Shown here: positions 56,565-64,000 of the stretch, piece after piece
Position numbering within the stretch: the first letter of the stretch is position 1
Layout of the letters: each line of letters begins with the position of its first letter
Source of the DNA: Thalassospira australica
GTDB taxonomy: Bacteria; Pseudomonadota; Alphaproteobacteria; Rhodospirillales; Thalassospiraceae
Length of the DNA: 64,000 nt
Direction: 5' to 3'
Assembly (NCBI RefSeq): GCF_000763295.1
Contig: NZ_JRJE01000020.1
Coordinates: 62,001 to 126,000, forward strand
Position numbers and translations under genes: made by a program
The notes under the pieces: generated by a model
What the model saw: only the letters and a program-made list of their open reading frames with translations
What the model was told of the DNA's origin: nothing
Database searches by the model: none

Positions 56565-57506
56565 CTAATTCAATTTGGTTTTCAACCAGCCCAAAAGCCT
56601 GGCATGGCGTTCCGTCCCGGCGAAATCAGGATTGCACACCAGCCAATAGGCCGATTTCATCGGCACCGTCGGGCCCACGGGCTTTAAAAACCCCTGGGCG
56701 ATATCGCCTTCGACCAAAAGTGTTCTGCCAAGCCCGACCCCCATGCCGTTGATTGCGGCCTGCAACACCAGATCGGCCCGCTCGAACACGATCTGGCGTT
56801 TATCGTGATCCAGCTGCAGCCCCGCCTTTGCAAGGTAATAGGCCCAGCTGAAATCCGTACTATCCTGCTCGCCGGTTGTATCCTTAAGAAACATGGCGTC
56901 AGGCTGTTCTGCAAACTGTTCAAGCGTGGCACCATCATCAGATAGACTGGGGCATAAACCGGGGCATAAACCGGGGCGGGCGACCGGCACGATCCTGGCC
57001 TTTTTAAGCAGGGTCGAATGCAGGCCGGGATACGGCCCGACGCCAAAGCGAATTGCCGCATCGATCACCCCCGCCTTGAAATCCACCGGGCGGTCATTGA
57101 CATCAAGGGCAATCTCAAGCCCGGAATGCTGCGCATCGGCCAAATGGGGCAACACCCATTTCATCGCCAAGGAGGATGAAACCGACAAGCGCACCGCCCC
57201 TTGCGTTTCGAACTTTTCCAACTTGTCGAATGCGACGTCCCAATGGCCGATGGCGTCACCTGCCGCCGCACACAGAATGCGCCCCTGCGCAGTTGGCGTG
57301 ATCTGGCGGGTTGTGCGCTCAAACAAGGAAAAGCCAAGCACCTCTTCAAGCAGATTGATCCGGTGGCTGATCGCCGATTGATGCACACCAAGCTTTTCGG
57401 CCGCCTTGCTGAAACTGTTTTCACGGGCAATGGCCACCAGAAGCGGGGCGTTTTGATTGACCCTGGCGATTAAATTCTCGCGCGATCTTTCATGAGTTTT
57501 CTTCAT
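56565..57506 (-). CDS. LysR-family transcriptional regulator
   Basis: A 313-residue regulator. The N-terminal helix-turn-helix is AIARENSFSKAAEKLGVHQS then AISHRINLLEEVLGFSLFER. The effector domain follows. Around residues 178-190 the chain reads PGLCPGLCPSL, encoded by a perfect 12-bp tandem duplication at about 56951-56974. The last third (VGLGRTLLVEGDIAQGFLKP) resembles GcvA-like LysR proteins. It is divergent from a PhzF-like enzyme gene, its likely target. Confidence 0.9.
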   Translation of the reverse strand: MKKTHERSRENLIARVNQNAPLLVAIARENSFSKAAEKLGVHQSAISHRINLLEEVLGFSLFERTTRQITPTAQGRILCAAAGDAIGHWDVAFDKLEKFETQGAVRLSVSSSLAMKWVLPHLADAQHSGLEIALDVNDRPVDFKAGVIDAAIRFGVGPYPGLHSTLLKKARIVPVARPGLCPGLCPSLSDDGATLEQFAEQPDAMFLKDTTGEQDSTDFSWAYYLAKAGLQLDHDKRQIVFERADLVLQAAINGMGVGLGRTLLVEGDIAQGFLKPVGPTVPMKSAYWLVCNPDFAGTERHARLLGWLKTKLN

Positions 57507-57578
57507 GTGTATATGACTTCACTCTCGCACTATTCCTGCCAGTATCGGCGTAACACAGATTTTAGCAGGAACAGAGTT

Positions 57579-58490
57579 ATGAGTACATTTCAAGAAACAC
57601 CCAAAACCGTCCCGGTGCAGATCGTCAATGCGTTCGTCAAAAACAATCAGGGCGGCAACCCGGCCGGTGTCGTGCTGGACGCCGACCAATACAGCGACGC
57701 GCAAAAGCTTTTGATCGCGCAAAAAGTCGGCCTGTCGGAAACCGCCTTCGTTTCGAAATCCGACACATGCGGCATCAAGCTTGATTTCTTCACCCCGACC
57801 AAACGCATTGCCCATTGCGGCCATGCGACCATTGCAACCTTTTCCTATCTGGCCTCACTCGGGCGGTTTGGCGATGGCGAAACATCCAAGGAAACCGTCG
57901 ATGGCCCGCGCAAAATCATCCTTGAAAACGGCATGGCCTATATGGAGCAACTGGCCCCGACCTACACCCCGGCAACCGAATGGGTTGATCACGGCGTAAC
58001 GCTTGAGGCTGTCCTGAATTCACTGTCGATCAGCGAAGATGATCTCGATGACCGCGCCCAGCCGGTTCTGGTCAACACCGGCAACAACTTCATCGTCATC
58101 GCGGTGAAAGATCAGGCGACGCTTGCCAACATCACGCCCGATCAGGACACCATCAACGCCATCAGCGAGAAACTCGACCTGATCGGCTATTACATCTTCA
58201 CCACCGGCACCGATGATGCGGGGATTGATGCCACCACCCGCATGTTCGCCCCGCGCTATGGCATTACTGAGGAAGCCGCCACCGGCATGGCGGCTGGCCC
58301 GCTGGCCTGCGTGCTGTTTGATCACCTCAAGATCAAAAAACACACCTTCCGGATCAGTCAGGGCGCATTCATGGATCCCCCATCCCCCAGCCTGATCACG
58401 GTCACGCTGGATCTTAAAGACGACCGCATCACCGGCCTCATGGCGGGCGGCGAAGGCAAGGTGATGAAAAACCTTGAGGTTACGCTTTAA
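57579..58490 (+). CDS. PhzF-family isomerase/epimerase-like protein
   Basis: A 303-residue two-domain diaminopimelate-epimerase-fold protein. Landmarks: VNAFVKNNQGGNPAGVVL, the catalytic-Glu segment VGLSETAFVS, FTPTKRIAHCGHATIATFSY, and RYGITEEAATGMAAGPLA. Members isomerise small acids, as PhzF does in phenazine synthesis; no phenazine genes are here, so the substrate is unknown. AGGA lies before the ATG at 57579. Divergent from the LysR gene. Confidence 0.9.
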   Translation: MSTFQETPKTVPVQIVNAFVKNNQGGNPAGVVLDADQYSDAQKLLIAQKVGLSETAFVSKSDTCGIKLDFFTPTKRIAHCGHATIATFSYLASLGRFGDGETSKETVDGPRKIILENGMAYMEQLAPTYTPATEWVDHGVTLEAVLNSLSISEDDLDDRAQPVLVNTGNNFIVIAVKDQATLANITPDQDTINAISEKLDLIGYYIFTTGTDDAGIDATTRMFAPRYGITEEAATGMAAGPLACVLFDHLKIKKHTFRISQGAFMDPPSPSLITVTLDLKDDRITGLMAGGEGKVMKNLEVTL

Positions 58491-58662: not shown

Positions 58663-58709
58663 ATTTGATTTCTTTCATCTGCCCCGCCGGTTTAACCCGA
58701 TCCTTGACG

Positions 58710-59168
58710 ATGCCTCAAACCGATGTGAAGCTTGGATCAAATAACGCGGGTGCCCCCATGAATGATGGCTTGGACCTACCGCCGGGCATTGGCCCGCACA
58801 ATGATCGCGAACTGGAATTGATGCTGGCCGGGACAAAGCCGATGGCGATGTTTTCCGACGCCGTTCATGTCAGCGACTATTTCCCTGACGCCGATTTCGC
58901 CTCGCATGTCAAATCAGGCCGGATCATCCGCGTTGAGGAAATCATCCCCCGCCCACCCCATGAGATGCGATACCTATTCTTCGCCCTGCCCGGCGAGGAA
59001 TGGCGGATCAAGGAAGCGTTGGTGATGTGCCGCAATCTATGCGCCGGGACGGTCAAGGACCATGACGCGGATTCGGCGCGGATGGGGGAGTTGTTGGGGT
59101 ATTCGGCTGAGGATATCGAAGCATTCCTAGCGCACGTAAAACGTCGATCAGCTTCAACTGTTTTCTGA
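58710..59168 (+). CDS. Unrecognised 152-residue protein behind twin operators
   Basis: Soluble protein, function unknown. The start is uncertain: ATG 58710 or ATG 58758 (MNDGLDLPPG); the latter begins at the more conserved-looking part. The middle has RPPHEMRYLFFALPGEEWRI and the end has ARMGELLGYSAEDIEAFLAHVK, a helix pattern seen in small phage-linked proteins. It lies at the border where prophage-like genes begin. The strong twin palindromes upstream suggest tight repression. Confidence 0.6.
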   Translation: MPQTDVKLGSNNAGAPMNDGLDLPPGIGPHNDRELELMLAGTKPMAMFSDAVHVSDYFPDADFASHVKSGRIIRVEEIIPRPPHEMRYLFFALPGEEWRIKEALVMCRNLCAGTVKDHDADSARMGELLGYSAEDIEAFLAHVKRRSASTVF

Positions 59169-59354
59169 CAAACTTTTGGTTAGCTACTTCACGATAAATG
59201 CACCAACCAGACCAAAGCAAATACAAGGTTAGAATGCACTGAAAATTGGCAAGTATGCGCCCAAATCTTAACAAAGATTCAAAAATTCAAGCGTAATGTG
59301 CAGAGTGATATAAAAGCGAAAACTATTTTTTATTTCTCTCGCAAGGGTTGAGTC

Positions 59355-60128
59355 ATGGCCGAAACTGAGATCGAATGGACAGACGCAACTTGGAACCCGG
59401 TTGCTGGATGCAGCATTCAATCAAGTGGCTGCAAAAATTGCTACGCAATGCGCATGGCAAAGCGTCTGGAAGCTATGGGAGTAGACAAATACAATGGCTT
59501 AACCAAAACGGTGAATGGTAAGGCCGTCTGGACTGGGAAAATCAGAGAAGACAGGCAAGCTCTGGAAGCGCCTCTAAACTGGAAAAAGCCCAGAAAAATA
59601 TTTGTAAATTCCATGAGCGACTTGTTTCATGCGGATGTGCAGGAAAGCTTTATAAAAGCGGTCTGGCAAGTCATGAGCCAAACCCCGCAACACAATTACC
59701 AAATCCTCACCAAGCGACCTGATAGGATGTTGGAGATATTGAGTGGCTCGGACTACGCTGTTTTGCCAAATGTGTGGCTTGGAACGAGCGTCGAAAGTAT
59801 CGATGTTATTGAGCGCATAGGCTACTTGCGCAAAGTCCCGGCGGCAATTCGGTTCATCTCCTTTGAACCACTTATTGGCGCAGTAGGGCCTACGAACTTA
59901 TCTGATATTCACTGGGCCATTGTGGGTGGCGAAAGCGGGCCGAATGCGCGTCCAATCAAGGAAGCATGGATTGATGAAATTCATGATCAATGCACAATTT
60001 ATGATACAGCATTCTTCTTTAAACAGTGGGGCACTTGGGGTTCTGACAACAAGAAGCGATCCAAAAAGGCCAACGGTCGCGTTTATAGAGGACAAACTTG
60101 GGATCAAATGCCCGCACACGCTATGTGA
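59355..60128 (+). CDS. DUF5131 / phage Gp37-Gp68 family three-Cys protein, radical-SAM-like
   Basis: A 257-residue cytoplasmic protein. The N-terminal IEWTDATWNPVAGC and the Cys cluster C19-x6-C26-x2-C29 (CSIQSSGCKNC) define the family; the cluster resembles an iron-sulfur site of radical SAM enzymes. Further family landmarks are KIFVNSMSDLFHADV, YQILTKRPDRM, LPNVWLGTSVES, RFISFEPLIG and WAIVGGESGPNARP. AAGGG precedes the ATG. It overlaps the convergent tcmP gene by 8 bp at their 3' ends. The family regularly occurs with TcmP proteins; the joint activity is not established. The 186 bp upstream are AT-rich and hold its promoter. Confidence 0.9.
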   Translation: MAETEIEWTDATWNPVAGCSIQSSGCKNCYAMRMAKRLEAMGVDKYNGLTKTVNGKAVWTGKIREDRQALEAPLNWKKPRKIFVNSMSDLFHADVQESFIKAVWQVMSQTPQHNYQILTKRPDRMLEILSGSDYAVLPNVWLGTSVESIDVIERIGYLRKVPAAIRFISFEPLIGAVGPTNLSDIHWAIVGGESGPNARPIKEAWIDEIHDQCTIYDTAFFFKQWGTWGSDNKKRSKKANGRVYRGQTWDQMPAHAM

Positions 60129-61008
60129 TAGACTTCCTCAGGTGCCTGACGATCCTTTGAGCAATGTTTTTCGCTGGATTGGAAGGGTTTGACATCGCGA
60201 AGAACAAAGAAAATAACTGCGGCCCTTGTGTGTTTCTGAGAGGAATTGGTTCGGATACCCAAGCTGTGAATTCGGTTTGCAATCTTTGCTTAACATAAGC
60301 TTCTATCGCCGGAATTTTAGCATTTCGCTCTAGCCGCTCACTGTCTGCGAAGAAGTCTGATTGGGTAGCAGCTTCATAAAGAGCATCACGCCAATCCGTG
60401 GTTCCCAAACAACGATCAATCGCTTTGCTTTTGTCTTCGTCAATCTTATCAAAGTTTCTGGCAGCCTGTCGGTACAAGCCTGAGAGCGGAAACAAGAACC
60501 ACAGATCAATAGCCTTGGTGGCCGCAATATCTTTCAGAGTTTGCCACTCAACCTGCATACCGTAGGGATCCAAGAATAGTACCGCGCGGGTACCCCAATA
60601 CCCACCTCCGCGCCCCCACTGAGTTGAACGGCAAAATTCTTGCACCAGCTCATTGGCATCGCCTTGGCGGCACCGCGTCTTCTTATTTGGAAACCTTGAG
60701 CAGAGCTTCTCCAGGGCATCAACGTGCTTAGCTTTCTTATCGATGAAAAGATACTCGTCAAACTTGTTATCCATCTGCAAAACTAATTGTGCAGATCCTG
60801 GGGTGATAGTTTGACCTTCACTTTCTTCCCCTAGAAGGGGAAAGCCATTGTGGGTTGTAGTTCGGCTTCCCGTTCCTGCAAAGGCATCGACATAAATGTT
60901 ACGATAATTCTGGCCACTCATCACATGTAGATAGGCCTCAAGGTAGCGTTGGATCACGTTCAACTTTATCTCGGTGTGACGCCCACCGAACTTATGCTCA
61001 ACTGCCAT
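60121..61008 (-). CDS. tcmP: Three-Cys-motif partner protein TcmP
   Basis: A 295-residue protein of the TcmP family, named for its association with three-Cys proteins such as the neighbour. It opens with the family pattern FGGRHTEIKLNVIQRYLEAY. IYVDAFAGTGSR (about 39-49) resembles motif I of class I methyltransferases and LFLDPYG (about 144-150) resembles their catalytic motif IV, so a methyltransferase-like fold is likely. YLFIDKKAKHVDALEKL fits the next strand. The gene is more AT-rich than the lysis genes beside it. It lies tail to tail with its partner, an uncommon layout for functionally linked genes. Role unknown; phage-related defence or counter-defence is inference. Confidence 0.88.
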   Translation of the reverse strand: MAVEHKFGGRHTEIKLNVIQRYLEAYLHVMSGQNYRNIYVDAFAGTGSRTTTHNGFPLLGEESEGQTITPGSAQLVLQMDNKFDEYLFIDKKAKHVDALEKLCSRFPNKKTRCRQGDANELVQEFCRSTQWGRGGGYWGTRAVLFLDPYGMQVEWQTLKDIAATKAIDLWFLFPLSGLYRQAARNFDKIDEDKSKAIDRCLGTTDWRDALYEAATQSDFFADSERLERNAKIPAIEAYVKQRLQTEFTAWVSEPIPLRNTQGPQLFSLFFAMSNPSNPAKNIAQRIVRHLRKSIT

Positions 61009-61118
61009 TCAACACCCCTGAAGATCACAACCGCTAGTTTAGATAAATTAACCACCCTTAGTAAACACAACCTAAATATTCAGCTATCCTTACTCAGCTA
61101 ATGCTCTAGTTGTTTGCT

Positions 61119-61613
61119 TTACTTATCCCGCTGCGCCTTATCCGCACTCCGCTTAACAACACTCACCCCCAAAACCCCCAATGCAATGCCCCAGATCGGG
61201 CTGGTATTGACAAGTGCTGCGATAATCGCCGGGGCCTGAAGCGGCGTTAAGATGATGGCATAGGCAATCGCGCCCATGGTCATGATCCAGGTGAGCGCGA
61301 CGGCGTAGCCGAAGCTCGGCCGCCAACGCCTCACAAAGGCATCTTCGCTGGCGACCTCGGCGCGGATGGTGCGGTTAACCGACTTAAGCGTTTCGGTATC
61401 GCGCGCCAGTTCGATTTCGGCCATGCGTTCGGTGTGGCGGTTGGCAGCAGTGATCTGTTCCGGGGTGACGTCGCCCTTGGTTACCGCCTTTTCAACCTGC
61501 TTGAGGCCTTCGGCCGCCGTTTTGGCAATCGGGTTGTCGATATGATCAAGCCCCGCACCGACCGCCTTCATCAAAAGCGGCAGGCCGATTTGGGCAAGCA
61601 ATGCCGGGATCAT
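61119..61613 (-). CDS. Holin of the gene-transfer-agent 3TM type
   Basis: A 164-residue protein with two or three C-terminal membrane helices (YAVALTWIMTMGAIAYAIIL and PIWGIALGVLGVSVV) after a helical N-terminal half. RRWRPSFGYAVAL is a family hallmark of the 3TM holins used by alphaproteobacterial gene transfer agents and related phages. GGAGGTATAAA precedes the ATG. With the endolysin gene upstream it forms a lysis cassette. Confidence 0.85.
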   Translation of the reverse strand: MIPALLAQIGLPLLMKAVGAGLDHIDNPIAKTAAEGLKQVEKAVTKGDVTPEQITAANRHTERMAEIELARDTETLKSVNRTIRAEVASEDAFVRRWRPSFGYAVALTWIMTMGAIAYAIILTPLQAPAIIAALVNTSPIWGIALGVLGVSVVKRSADKAQRDK

Positions 61614-61788
61614 TTTATACCTCCATCAAATTCGGGGCATCCAACCGATGGCCGGGATTGTCGGTAAGACGTGGCGAGAAGGAGCATTGGAGAGAACCGG
61701 CGCGCAGCGTACATGCCCGTAAGTAAGCACCGGAAGCGCAGCCAATGCTTCTTTGCAGCCCGTCTTGGCGGCAATAGCGGCCATCGGA

Positions 61789-62286
61789 TTAGCCGATATC
61801 GCGATAGAACAGGTGCCCACCAATCTCGGCAACCGGCACATGCCCACGCGCCCAATAGGGATCCACCGCGTGGGTGTGGTAATGGGTCGCCCCATCGGTT
61901 TGATCGGGAAGATCGCCCGTCACCGCGCGCTTGGCGATGCGTTTGCACAGGCGATAAGCCCTGTCACGCGGACTGATCGCCAAAAGTTTCTTGCGGTTGG
62001 GGTCCGCTTCGTTCCAGCAGGAAAACTGCGCCGGTTTGAGGCACACCGATTTGATGTCATGGCCCCACCAATAGCGTCCGCGCGATTGCGCCACCGCCAC
62101 CCGGTTAAGGATCACCGATGCCACCGCCTCAATCCCGGCAAGCTCTTCGCCGCGTGCCTCGCCATAAAGGGTTCGGGCCAGAACATCGATCTCGGAAAGG
62201 GTTTCGGGTGCTGTTGGCGCTGGTGGCGCAGGTGATGTTGTGGTTTCTGCCGCTGGTTTGGTCAGGGGGGCTGTATCAAGGCTCAT
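61789..62286 (-). CDS. Cell-wall hydrolase (SleB family), phage endolysin
   Basis: A 165-residue peptidoglycan hydrolase of the Hydrolase_2 (SleB) family. A Pro/Ala/Thr-rich lead (about 1-30) is followed by EIDVLARTLYGEARGEELAG with the catalytic Glu, IEAVASVILNRV, CLKPAQFSCWNEADPNR and the C-terminal THYHTHAVDPYWA. No signal peptide, so export would need the neighbouring holin. Its ATG overlaps the stop of the preceding phage gene (ATGA). A 175-bp gap to the holin shows only weak short frames. Confidence 0.88.
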   Translation of the reverse strand: MSLDTAPLTKPAAETTTSPAPPAPTAPETLSEIDVLARTLYGEARGEELAGIEAVASVILNRVAVAQSRGRYWWGHDIKSVCLKPAQFSCWNEADPNRKKLLAISPRDRAYRLCKRIAKRAVTGDLPDQTDGATHYHTHAVDPYWARGHVPVAEIGGHLFYRDIG

Positions 62287-62585
62287 GGGGTCAGCTCCTT
62301 TTTAACCGGCACGTCAAGTTTGGCCTCGATCCGAAGCAAATGCCCGGTCAGGCGTTTTTCGACGTCCTTGAGATAGGGGATGGAGACATAATTGCGCGCA
62401 ACATCAAGCTTAAACGCCGCCAGACCATCGCGCAGGTCACTCACGTCATTTTCATGGCGCGTGCGTTGGGTTTCGGTGCGATTCAGAAGTTCCGCGCGCA
62501 TGCGCCAATGCAGCCAAAACAAGCTGGCGACCGCCGGAATTTCCACCGCCGTGATCCACCAGATCACGTCAACAGGTTGGGTCAT
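62283..62585 (-). CDS. Phage lysis-region membrane protein (hypothetical)
   Basis: A 100-residue protein with one N-terminal membrane helix (VIWWITAVEIPAVASLFWLH) and a long charged helix after it (TRHENDVSDLRDGLAAFKLD, then LKDVEKRLTGHLLRIEAKL). This matches the layout of small spanin-like or holin-associated proteins in prophage lysis cassettes. It overlaps the endolysin gene by 4 bp. Exact family not recognised. Confidence 0.72.
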   Translation of the reverse strand: MTQPVDVIWWITAVEIPAVASLFWLHWRMRAELLNRTETQRTRHENDVSDLRDGLAAFKLDVARNYVSIPYLKDVEKRLTGHLLRIEAKLDVPVKKELTP

Positions 62586-62601
62586 ATGGGCCTCGAAATT
62601 C

Positions 62602-62769
62602 TAGAGCGCATCGCGTTTAATCCGTACCATTTTGCCGGAGGGTTTGATCTTGGCGACGTTTCGCGGCGTTACACCGTTTGACCGATGCCCGCAGCTCTGC
62701 ACGCTGTGCCTTGCCAAACGACACGCCAAAAACAAACGAAATGATGCCGATTAAACGCGACGCGCTCTA
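62602..62769. repeat. 168-bp element bounded by 23-bp inverted repeats (MITE-like)
   Basis: TAGAGCGCATCGCGTTTAAT plus CCG (62602-62624) matches the reverse complement of 62747-62769 at 21 of 23 positions. The interior of about 120 bp holds a minus-strand open stretch (reading GIISFVFGVSFGKAQRAEL and on) that lacks a good start codon. No clear target duplication is visible. It could be a miniature inverted-repeat element or a repeat pair that captured a gene fragment. Confidence 0.6.
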
Positions 62770-62773
62770 ACAA

Positions 62774-62805
62774 AGAAAAACCCGCAAACCGGATGGCTTG
62801 CGGGT
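62774..62805 (-). terminator. Terminator of the small secreted-protein gene
   Basis: On the leftward transcript ACCCGCAA pairs with TTGCGGGT (62780-62787 with 62798-62805), followed by TTTTTC. It lies 119 bp after the 62924 stop. Confidence 0.82.
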
Positions 62806-62923
62806 CAGGTGACCGTTCCCTCCACCCGGGGCAACACCCCGCGGGTTGGATGGGCGGTTAAAACCGTCAGAAGGCAGATATCAAAGGGCCGCATGCATCG
62901 GCCCAAGGGCTCAGGCCAAGCGC

Positions 62924-63232
62924 CTAGGCTGCCGGTCCGTTCAGCTTTTCTTCAAGGTCCTGCCAAGCCTCGCCAGAAGCAACAAGGCAGCTTGGGCCGG
63001 ACGGATAGGTAAACAATATGGTCCATGTCTGACCGTCGGGCGCCTTAAGCACCTCGATCACGCCGCCATTGGATGTCACGCCAACCGCGACTGGTTCTTC
63101 GGAATATTTCGCACTCAGACTGTCAATGACCTTGGACCGGTCACCGCAGACGGGCGACGCCATGGCGTCTGGAAGTGTCGCAACTGTAACGGCCCCTGCC
63201 ATCACAGCGATCAAGCTCAGTGTTTTCAACAT
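62924..63232 (-). CDS. Small secreted conserved protein
   Basis: A 102-residue exported protein. The signal peptide ends near DAMAS. The mature part reads CGDRSKVIDSLSAKYSEEPV, VGVTSNGGVIEVLKAP and TWTILFTYPSGPSCLVASGE, with two Cys that could pair. Similar small periplasmic proteins are widespread in alphaproteobacteria without assigned function. It lies inside the prophage-like stretch but has its own terminator, so it may be chromosomal. The 400 bp to its right (63233-63640) hold its promoter and no gene I can support. Confidence 0.75.
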   Translation of the reverse strand: MLKTLSLIAVMAGAVTVATLPDAMASPVCGDRSKVIDSLSAKYSEEPVAVGVTSNGGVIEVLKAPDGQTWTILFTYPSGPSCLVASGEAWQDLEEKLNGPAA

Positions 63233-63514
63233 GGTCAGGCCTCCTGACAGTCAGGTGCGCCCACATGGACGTCTTGTTGTCCTGGACTGTTAAATGGATC
63301 AACAAATTGACCTTTGGCCGTTTCCCGGAGCCTTCATGATCAACGGCCCCTGATTCCTCTGGCTTATATGCTCTTTGGTATAGTAAAAATTCGGCGTTAC
63401 TATTCTTTCATATAATAAACGTAGGGTCGAAAACTGAATTTTCCATGAACATTTCACAAATGTGATACAAAGCCGCGCTAACCATTTGGCATTGTGAGAA
63501 AGTTTTTCCTGCAC

Positions 63515-63815
63515 TCACGGATTGAAATGGCTTTCCGCCCGGAAAATCCCGCCGTTTGACCGCCAGTCGGCCCGCCGTATCGGCATATCCACCCGTGGCA
63601 AGCGCACCGGTTCGGCCAAAATGCACCCTGCGACCGCATCAAGCCCCCTTGGCCACAAACCGCCACGGATAGCCCGCCAGCATCCCGTCGCGTATTGCTG
63701 GATAAAGCATGCGGGCAATTTCCGCCTCCGCCCCCTCTTCCTCAAAGGATGAAATCGGCGCCGCCCCAATCATCACCAACGCACGTGCACACAACGCCAT
63801 ATCACTTAACGCCAT
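63515..63815 (-). pseudogene. Frameshifted phage structural protein gene fragment
   Basis: From ATG 63815 the frame reads MALSDMALCARALVMIGAAP then SSFEEEGAEAEIARMLYPAI and YPWRFVAKGA before stopping at 63639. This N-terminus is typical of phage head-tail or tail tubular-like proteins, which are much longer. In another frame the homologous-looking continuation runs LDAVAGCILAEPVRLPRVDM and on to 63515, so a one-base slip near the GGGGG run at about 63648-63652 is likely. Ten consecutive G (minus strand) at 63821-63830 lie where the ribosome site should be. Decayed prophage gene or a sequencing slip. Confidence 0.55.
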
Positions 63816-63846
63816 CTGATCCCCCCCCCCAAACAGGCCCCAAACA

Positions 63847-63877
63847 AAAAACGGGGCCCGGAAAACCGGACCCCGCA
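63847..63877 (-). terminator. Terminator after the phage tail gene
   Basis: On the leftward strand CGGGGTCCGG-TTTT-CCGGGCCCCG (63853-63876) is followed by TTTTTT, just after the tail-protein stop. Confidence 0.9.
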
Positions 63878-63897
63878 GTAAAATCAACCGTCAGACT

Positions 63898-64000
63898 TAT
63901 GATGCCGACGGATAGAACGCCTTGATCGCATATGTCATCGCGATGTTGCGTGGGCGGGTTTCGACACCGCCAGCTGTCTCTGTTTGATCGATTGCTGACC
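63898..64000 (-). CDS. Phage tail fibre/collar-like protein, C-terminal fragment (cut by right edge)
   Basis: About 33 codons of a leftward gene entering from the right edge. The end reads GGVETRPRNIAMTYAIKAFY before a TAA at 63898. The ETRPRNIA motif is a hallmark of the C-terminus of phage tail fibre/tail collar-type proteins. It shows that the prophage continues beyond the window. Confidence 0.75.

Follow-up and report, generated by a model that had tools for sequence, protein, structure and literature searches.

A convergent TcmP/DUF5131 gene pair in Thalassospira and its relatives in temperate phages: a candidate two-enzyme nucleic-acid modification module with exchangeable methyltransferase alleles

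TcmP, a putative methyltransferase, and DUF5131, a putative radical S-adenosylmethionine (SAM) enzyme, are widespread protein families whose genes are often neighbours, and what the two do together is the question raised by a locus of Thalassospira australica at which they converge and overlap at their 3' ends beside phage-type lysis genes. The locus lies in a window of 64,000 nucleotides (contig NZ_JRJE01000020.1, positions 62,001 to 126,000), the whole stretch of DNA analysed here, to which all coordinates refer. We hypothesize, with a probability of about 45%, that the pair is an accessory two-enzyme module for nucleic-acid modification with a function in defence; this turns an unexplained pairing into a testable proposal, namely a fixed chemistry joined to a swappable choice of target. 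The pair and its landmarks are as follows:

59355-60128, plus strand: DUF5131 protein, 257 aa, predicted radical-SAM-like (open reading frame (ORF) list; PF07505)
60121-61008, minus strand: TcmP, 295 aa, predicted SAM-dependent methyltransferase fold (ORF list; TIGR04474)
60121-60128, no strand: 8-bp overlap of the 3' ends of the two genes (ORF coordinates)
59409-59441, plus strand: three-cysteine cluster C-x6-C-x2-C, DUF5131 codons 19-29 (conservation in alignments)
60868-60888, minus strand: TcmP DAFAGTG, residues 41-47, at the motif I position (alignment of 52 sequences)
60559-60570, minus strand: TcmP DPYG, residues 147-150, at the motif IV position (same alignment)

The plus-strand protein matches PF07505 over its full length (residues 3-253; E 8.7e-101, 336.9 bits against a cut-off of 28.9), and the minus-strand protein matches TIGR04474 at 202.4 bits (curated cut-off 53). 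An earlier note on this DNA, made from the letters alone, had described tail-to-tail genes overlapping by 8 bp, the three-cysteine cluster, the DAFAGTG and DPYG motifs, a pair more AT-rich than its surroundings, and adjoining lysis genes, and each of these descriptions held. The ORFs end exactly as listed; C19, C26 and C29 of DUF5131 are invariant in 42 of 42 aligned sequences and present in at least 95% of 78 non-redundant ones, as is expected of the radical SAM superfamily. Among the 52 aligned TcmP sequences D41, F43, A44, G45 and G47 are invariant, as are P148 and G150, with D147 and Y149 at 90% or more. G+C content is about 0.45-0.49 across the pair and 0.54-0.61 in the flanking windows, and a holin (61119-61613) and a cell-wall hydrolase (61789-62286) adjoin it. 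Scans with Pfam, NCBIfam and PADLOC found no nuclease family in either protein, such as a restriction-modification system would have, and in a scan of 59100-61250 for promoters and terminators nothing rose above the level of shuffled sequence, with sigma-70-type promoters absent and a single terminator-like site.

The association of the two families is already known as a catalogue entry, because PADLOC-DB lists such pairs as the candidate defence system PDC-M41; the adjacent genes match its components M41A and M41B at 301 and 338 bits (PDC-M30 is a related entry), and the catalogue status of the system is that of a candidate only. In an even sample of 289 genomes of the class, DUF5131 occurs in 36 genomes (39 loci) and TcmP over its cut-off in 17 (18 loci), and all 17 also carry DUF5131. 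Seventeen of the 18 TcmP loci adjoin DUF5131 with gaps of up to about 1 kb, and the eighteenth starts 138 bases from the start of its contig. The families, which the earlier note had called known to co-occur, thus do so beyond chance. Plasmids, cyanophages and Gordonia phages carry pairs too. Wider searches gave 7201 TcmP candidates, of which 6790 are relatives at E <= 0.001, at least 8000 DUF5131 candidates, and relatives in at least 563 stretches of genome contigs and 63 of viral contigs, from collections that differ in size and with prophages included among the genome contigs. Similarity to other systems is weak: the radical SAM mobile pair TIGR04470/TIGR04471 is resembled at 72 bits for TIGR04471 against a cut-off of 355, and the PA0069/Rv2578c radical-SAM families lie below their family cut-offs, the spacing in DUF5131 being C-x6-C-x2-C. 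Our searches of open-licence papers found none on DUF5131 or PDC-M41, and no description of the reaction of either protein.

The two proteins change at very different rates. DUF5131 is more conserved than TcmP in 98% of 9180 locus pairs (mean identity 0.594 versus 0.416), and between the window and another Thalassospira genome (G291), which has the pair at the same place, DUF5131 is 94% identical and TcmP 54%. In the same comparison four-fold degenerate sites are identical at 39 of 95 and 23 of 71 positions in the two pair genes, and at 62 of 88 in the holin gene. Since these sites are worn in both pair genes, the difference between 94% and 54% means that DUF5131 is under much stronger constraint; and since they are more worn than in the holin gene, the pair is either older in its surroundings or foreign to them.

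The asymmetry is also seen in seven Gordonia temperate phages (Jablanski, WelcomeAyanna, Fairfaxidum, Easley, BaxterFox, Angelique and Bosnia), whose DUF5131 proteins are 92-97% identical. Their convergent neighbours fall into groups, Jablanski with Fairfaxidum (51% identity), WelcomeAyanna with Easley (97%), Angelique with Bosnia (88%) and BaxterFox alone, with 22-28% identity between groups. The Jablanski neighbour is a TcmP by TIGR04474 (117 bits), and a local TcmP profile is matched at E 1e-31 to 6e-19 by those of Fairfaxidum, WelcomeAyanna, Easley, Angelique and Bosnia. This profile was built from the Jablanski protein together with seven long TcmP-like proteins of bacteria, of which three were checked with TIGR04474. 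BaxterFox gp42 matches it at E 0.07 only, and we do not claim it as a TcmP. Annotated overlaps are 4-11 bp in the other six phages (the BaxterFox DUF5131 is unannotated and its end was set by hand without a stop there, so that it is left out of statements on overlap).

DNA identity, profiled for six phage pairs, collapses around the DUF5131 stop codon where the TcmP alleles differ. Between Jablanski and WelcomeAyanna it is 0.88-0.99 up to and including DUF5131 and 0.3-0.5 beyond; WelcomeAyanna shows a similar drop against Angelique and against BaxterFox, starting from 0.7-0.97, and Jablanski and Fairfaxidum fall from about 0.8 to about 0.5. Where the alleles are alike, the fall is small (Angelique and Bosnia, 0.95 to about 0.8) or absent (WelcomeAyanna and Easley, whose TcmP genes are 97% identical in DNA, the highly similar tract starting within the 3' part of DUF5131). 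We take these profiles to mean that TcmP alleles have been replaced while DUF5131 stayed fixed. The adjacent repressor varies independently, at 0.40 identity between WelcomeAyanna and Easley (TcmP 0.97) and 0.85 between Easley and Bosnia (TcmP 0.24); Jablanski was left out of these comparisons, the gene there being a hypothetical protein.

In six of the seven phages an annotated immunity repressor precedes the gene at the TcmP position, both lying on one strand, and an integrase is within the examined stretch in six (the exception being Bosnia). A comparable position is held by CarolAnn gp43/gp44 and Sbash gp30/gp31, which are described as prophage defence genes beside an immunity repressor (PMC6426606); those proteins are RexAB-like and unrelated to TcmP and DUF5131.

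Among closer relatives the convergent layout is itself conserved. We compiled 151 loci, comprising the best 80 of at least 563 from genome contigs, 62 from IMG/VR, the window, six from phages and plasmids, and two from Thalassospira. Both proteins are present in 139, of which 119 are convergent and adjacent, six convergent with a gene between, and 14 co-directional; the 139 reduce to 108 at an 80% TcmP identity cut, some of those from IMG/VR look like duplicates of genome loci, and L022 and L239 are apparently one region. Among the adjacent convergent pairs 118 of 119 overlap, by a median of 25 bp. A count by eye in 50 kb of Escherichia coli K-12 gave three overlaps among eight convergent neighbours, so that an overlap at any one locus is ordinary; a layout conserved in 118 of 119 related loci is notable.

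Eleven of the 151 loci are without DUF5131, and one (L017) is without a TcmP of the window's type. Of the ten inspected among the eleven, four (L024, L086, L100, L160) lie where the sequence ends shortly past the TcmP gene, in four (L020, L141, L145, L153; four of four tested) a PA0069/Rv2578c-like radical-SAM protein replaces DUF5131 beside TcmP, and two (L137, L163) look alike by eye. A radical-SAM partner thus looks constant beside TcmP; its family and its orientation do not. Where a gene intervenes, it is a second, longer TcmP in the cases scanned (L018 and L050). A variant of three genes, in which one radical-SAM protein is accompanied by two TcmP-like methyltransferases, was observed in L018, L050, L066, L085, L099, L137, L145 and L163, and, by weak profile matches, in L072 and L084 (TIGR04474 was checked in L018, L050 and L145). 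In L018 (5325-10986, Sinorhizobium meliloti pSymA) an 845-aa ORF directly precedes TcmP, which converges on the second TcmP, followed by DUF5131; by inference from PMC12445080, this ORF would be the known defence gene hna.

Structure prediction supports the radical-SAM-like and methyltransferase-like characters that the earlier note had proposed. The DUF5131 model has a radical-SAM fold, including the barrel of that superfamily, and its nearest structure is spore photoproduct lyase; the TcmP model shares its methyltransferase fold with RlmJ, the 23S rRNA A2030-N6 methyltransferase. These resemblances lie in the predicted folds. Identity to spore photoproduct lyase is about 12%, Pfam matches DUF5131 protein to DUF5131 and GP88 only and not to the lyase family, and the canonical cysteine spacing of the lyase is CX3CX2C, different from the C-x6-C-x2-C here. 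TcmP matches no Pfam family at 0.001, neither protein could be linked by sequence to a solved structure (phmmer for both, and a profile for TcmP), and the DUF5131 profile aligned with a Nostoc radical-SAM partner at a probability of 1.7%.

DUF5131 also occurs in phages apart from TcmP. It is present in 157 records of the phage collection, and TcmP was found in at least two records for the window's type and at least four for the Jablanski type, lower bounds because other TcmP types, such as that of WelcomeAyanna, escape the queries. Some phage DUF5131 genes without an annotated TcmP are labelled 'RNA methyltransferase' or 'spore photoproduct lyase', and among 12 such neighbourhoods (L267-L277 and L279) five have an annotated methyltransferase within the examined flank. 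The radical-SAM enzyme may therefore have methyltransferases other than TcmP as partners. That would fit chemistry on methylated bases, and equally a role in serving the phage.

What carries the proposed module is the identity of the families, their predicted folds, the pairing, the layout, the asymmetry in rate, and the differing Gordonia TcmP alleles beside one DUF5131. TcmP, as an RlmJ-fold SAM methyltransferase, would recognise and mark the target and be the variable, exchangeable specificity partner; DUF5131, a radical-SAM enzyme of spore-photoproduct-lyase type, would carry out one fixed step on the TcmP mark or at a site that TcmP has selected, and this single chemistry would leave its sequence hardly changed. 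We assign the roles in this order because a steady partner is expected to face a constant thing and a changing partner a variable one. In the tail-to-tail layout each gene would be read separately, presumably from its own promoter, and the junction at the 3' ends would be the place where TcmP alleles can be swapped without harm to DUF5131. From this we infer a defence role, with a step order, a target and a chemistry: an anti-phage role appears most likely and an RNA target more likely than DNA, while the exact chemistry is more tentative than the module itself. In a bolder form of the proposal, which we consider unlikely, the pair would be a new mode of immunity in which a near-invariant radical-SAM enzyme is served by a large pool of exchangeable methyltransferase specificity alleles, and a mark that the methyltransferase places on the RNA or DNA of the invader (or on RNA or DNA triggered by it) is converted by that enzyme to a lesion or crosslink. 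The radical-SAM step would then be the reverse of photoproduct repair, and the overlapping convergent ends a built-in swap point through which bacteria and temperate phages re-aim the system via one gene.

Before alternatives are weighed, the setting of the pair in Thalassospira has to be described, with these neighbouring features:

57492-58490: PhzF-like gene, left border of a variable stretch (label assigned without a search)
58665-59168, plus strand: 167-aa ORF left of the pair (13 of 28 relatives have a homologue close to the lysis cassette, weak in two)
61119-61613, minus strand: holin of gene-transfer-agent or phage type, right border of the variable stretch (PF11351; in 28 of 28 relatives' stretches)
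61789-62286, minus strand: cell-wall hydrolase/endolysin of a resident phage-like element (PF07486, phrog_938; in 28 of 28)

All 29 Thalassospira genomes examined have the holin/hydrolase cassette, and 28 have, in one close copy each, a portal-like gene belonging to that element (the exception is the draft genome G315). The segment is therefore a genus-wide resident element with variable cargo alongside, and an ordinary prophage was rejected; the earlier note had placed the pair at the end of a prophage-like segment, and with this distribution the position does not support carriage by a phage here. Insertion at a tRNA gene was likewise rejected, there being no tRNA within the window. The stretch between the PhzF-like gene, a border recognisable in 11 of 28 relatives, and the holin holds the pair in three of 29 genomes (G000, G291 and G315). 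Genus-wide, TcmP scores over cut-off in seven genomes (ten loci), each time within about 3 kb of DUF5131, which itself occurs in ten genomes (15 loci).

In relatives the same stretch carries HipB/HipA (HipA_C 9e-44), a PIN protein with a helix-turn-helix protein, DUF2971 (PDC-S31 3e-24), an Mrr-type nuclease, a TPR protein, and RloB together with an ATPase resembling AbiLi (AbiLi 9e-90). These proteins were picked by hand, ten from five genomes for Pfam, where nine of ten matched, and ten from seven genomes for PADLOC. A partial copy of the holin end lies beside the TcmP start in G291 and G315 (L223 and L239), with other ORFs before the intact holin, and another lies beside the 167-aa ORF in G310 (L222), apart from the intact holin; in the window the TcmP start adjoins the intact holin itself. 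Such copies next to cargo suggest that cargo has entered repeatedly at the holin 3' end. The mobile two-gene module of the earlier note thus stands as an accessory unit (seven of 29 genomes; plasmids, cyanophages and Gordonia phages) in a defence-type setting (PDC-M41 and the relatives' cargo), and is not supported as cargo of a prophage in this window.

Several observations weigh against a defence module of the proposed kind. Rapid change in TcmP could partly reflect relaxed constraint. In the class sample 22 of 39 DUF5131 loci have no TcmP, so solo DUF5131 is common and has a use of its own. The TcmP profile aligns with the host RlmJ-like protein at an hhalign probability of 6%, a weak likeness in sequence. 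Both families of the TcmP/three-Cys-motif pair (NCBIfam TIGR04474 with DUF5131, PF07505) score over cut-off here, but the window's convergent arrangement with overlapping ends differs from that prevailing in the class sample, where 14 of 17 pairs are co-directional and three convergent (G000, G004 and G228), and orientation has changed at least seven times on the TcmP tree. Behind TcmP in Jablanski stand two hypothetical genes and no repressor. In the PADLOC scan of relatives' cargo three of ten proteins matched strongly (AbiLi, AbiLii and PDC-S31), three weakly and four not at all. Finally, flanks were compared for genome loci (80, of which 51 have both proteins and more than 19 kb, 42 remain at a 75% identity cut and 37 after length limits), taking the 148 nearest and 148 farthest ORFs, chosen by length without a gene finder. 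PADLOC at 1e-20 matched 50 families near and 13 far, and PHROGs at 1e-15 matched 40 and 41. Each of the 25 near PADLOC families listed is matched by one protein (far, mad3 by four), and the near count is swollen because overlapping models hit few proteins (type III restriction-modification, CD-NTase cyclase with E2, type I specificity), so that there is no clear enrichment of defence or phage genes near the pair. Single cases do lie beside BREX, Abi genes, the hna region of pSymA or an HsdR-like gene; in the comparison of neighbourhoods that the earlier note had suggested, the toxin and defence cargo beside the same cassette in relatives supports a defence-type setting, and the flank tally shows no clear trend.

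Might the pair, and DUF5131 on its own, instead serve the phage or element, modifying or repairing its own nucleic acid as counter-defence against host systems? The 12 phage neighbourhoods favour this, since DUF5131 there lies mostly among recombination/replication or small early genes, with a methyltransferase in five, and the nearest predicted fold is that of a DNA-lesion enzyme. Relatives are nevertheless more numerous in genome contigs (the 563 or more against 63 above, with the same reservation on collection size and prophages), the Thalassospira pair occupies the usual place of toxin and defence genes, and the Gordonia pair lies near integrase and repressor; we hold this role, too, to be unlikely. 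Less credible still is a toxin-antidote pair, in which TcmP would over-methylate host RNA harmfully, the radical-SAM partner would reverse or prevent this, and infection would tip the balance. Convergent genes, toxin-antitoxin-type cargo in the same stretch of relatives and a predicted fold nearest an rRNA methyltransferase are in its favour, but an antidote usually co-varies with its toxin, whereas DUF5131 stays at 92-97% identity in the Gordonia phages beside TcmP at 22-28%, and solo DUF5131 is common where solo TcmP is not. The expectation of co-variation with TcmP likewise disfavours DUF5131 as the recogniser of the target. Just as improbable, in our estimate, is an accessory enzyme pair that travels on mobile DNA and modifies host RNA or some other molecule without any connection to phages; the predicted RlmJ-like fold and the flank tally agree with it, and yet patchy presence (seven of 29 congeners) and allele replacement are unlike housekeeping modification enzymes.

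If the defence module is real, immunity would gain a chemistry in which a radical-SAM enzyme acts on a methylated base. We know of no described defence system with such chemistry; viperins act on nucleotides. The Gordonia phages, with natural TcmP alleles beside a near-constant partner, offer a ready-made experiment. Our searches of open-licence papers found no description of the fold assignments, of the convergent overlap and its conservation, of radical-SAM partners standing in for one another, or of TcmP allele replacement at the junction.

The resident element beside the pair extends over window positions 61119-64000 and on to about 70500 in L004, with a holin, hydrolase, tail fibre, major head protein and head-tail adaptor/portal resembling those of pelagiphage HTVC010P and others; the element could be a podovirus that has become domesticated, or else a candidate gene-transfer agent. 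Two relatives (L264 and L265) carry about 8.4 and 7.1 kb at window position ~63640-63656 that are absent from the window's genome, the insert in L264 holding several large ORFs. Two short dispersed repeats were also observed, at 62635-62700, with scattered matches in at least 23 of 29 Thalassospira genomes, and at 61692-61767, with scattered matches in at least six.
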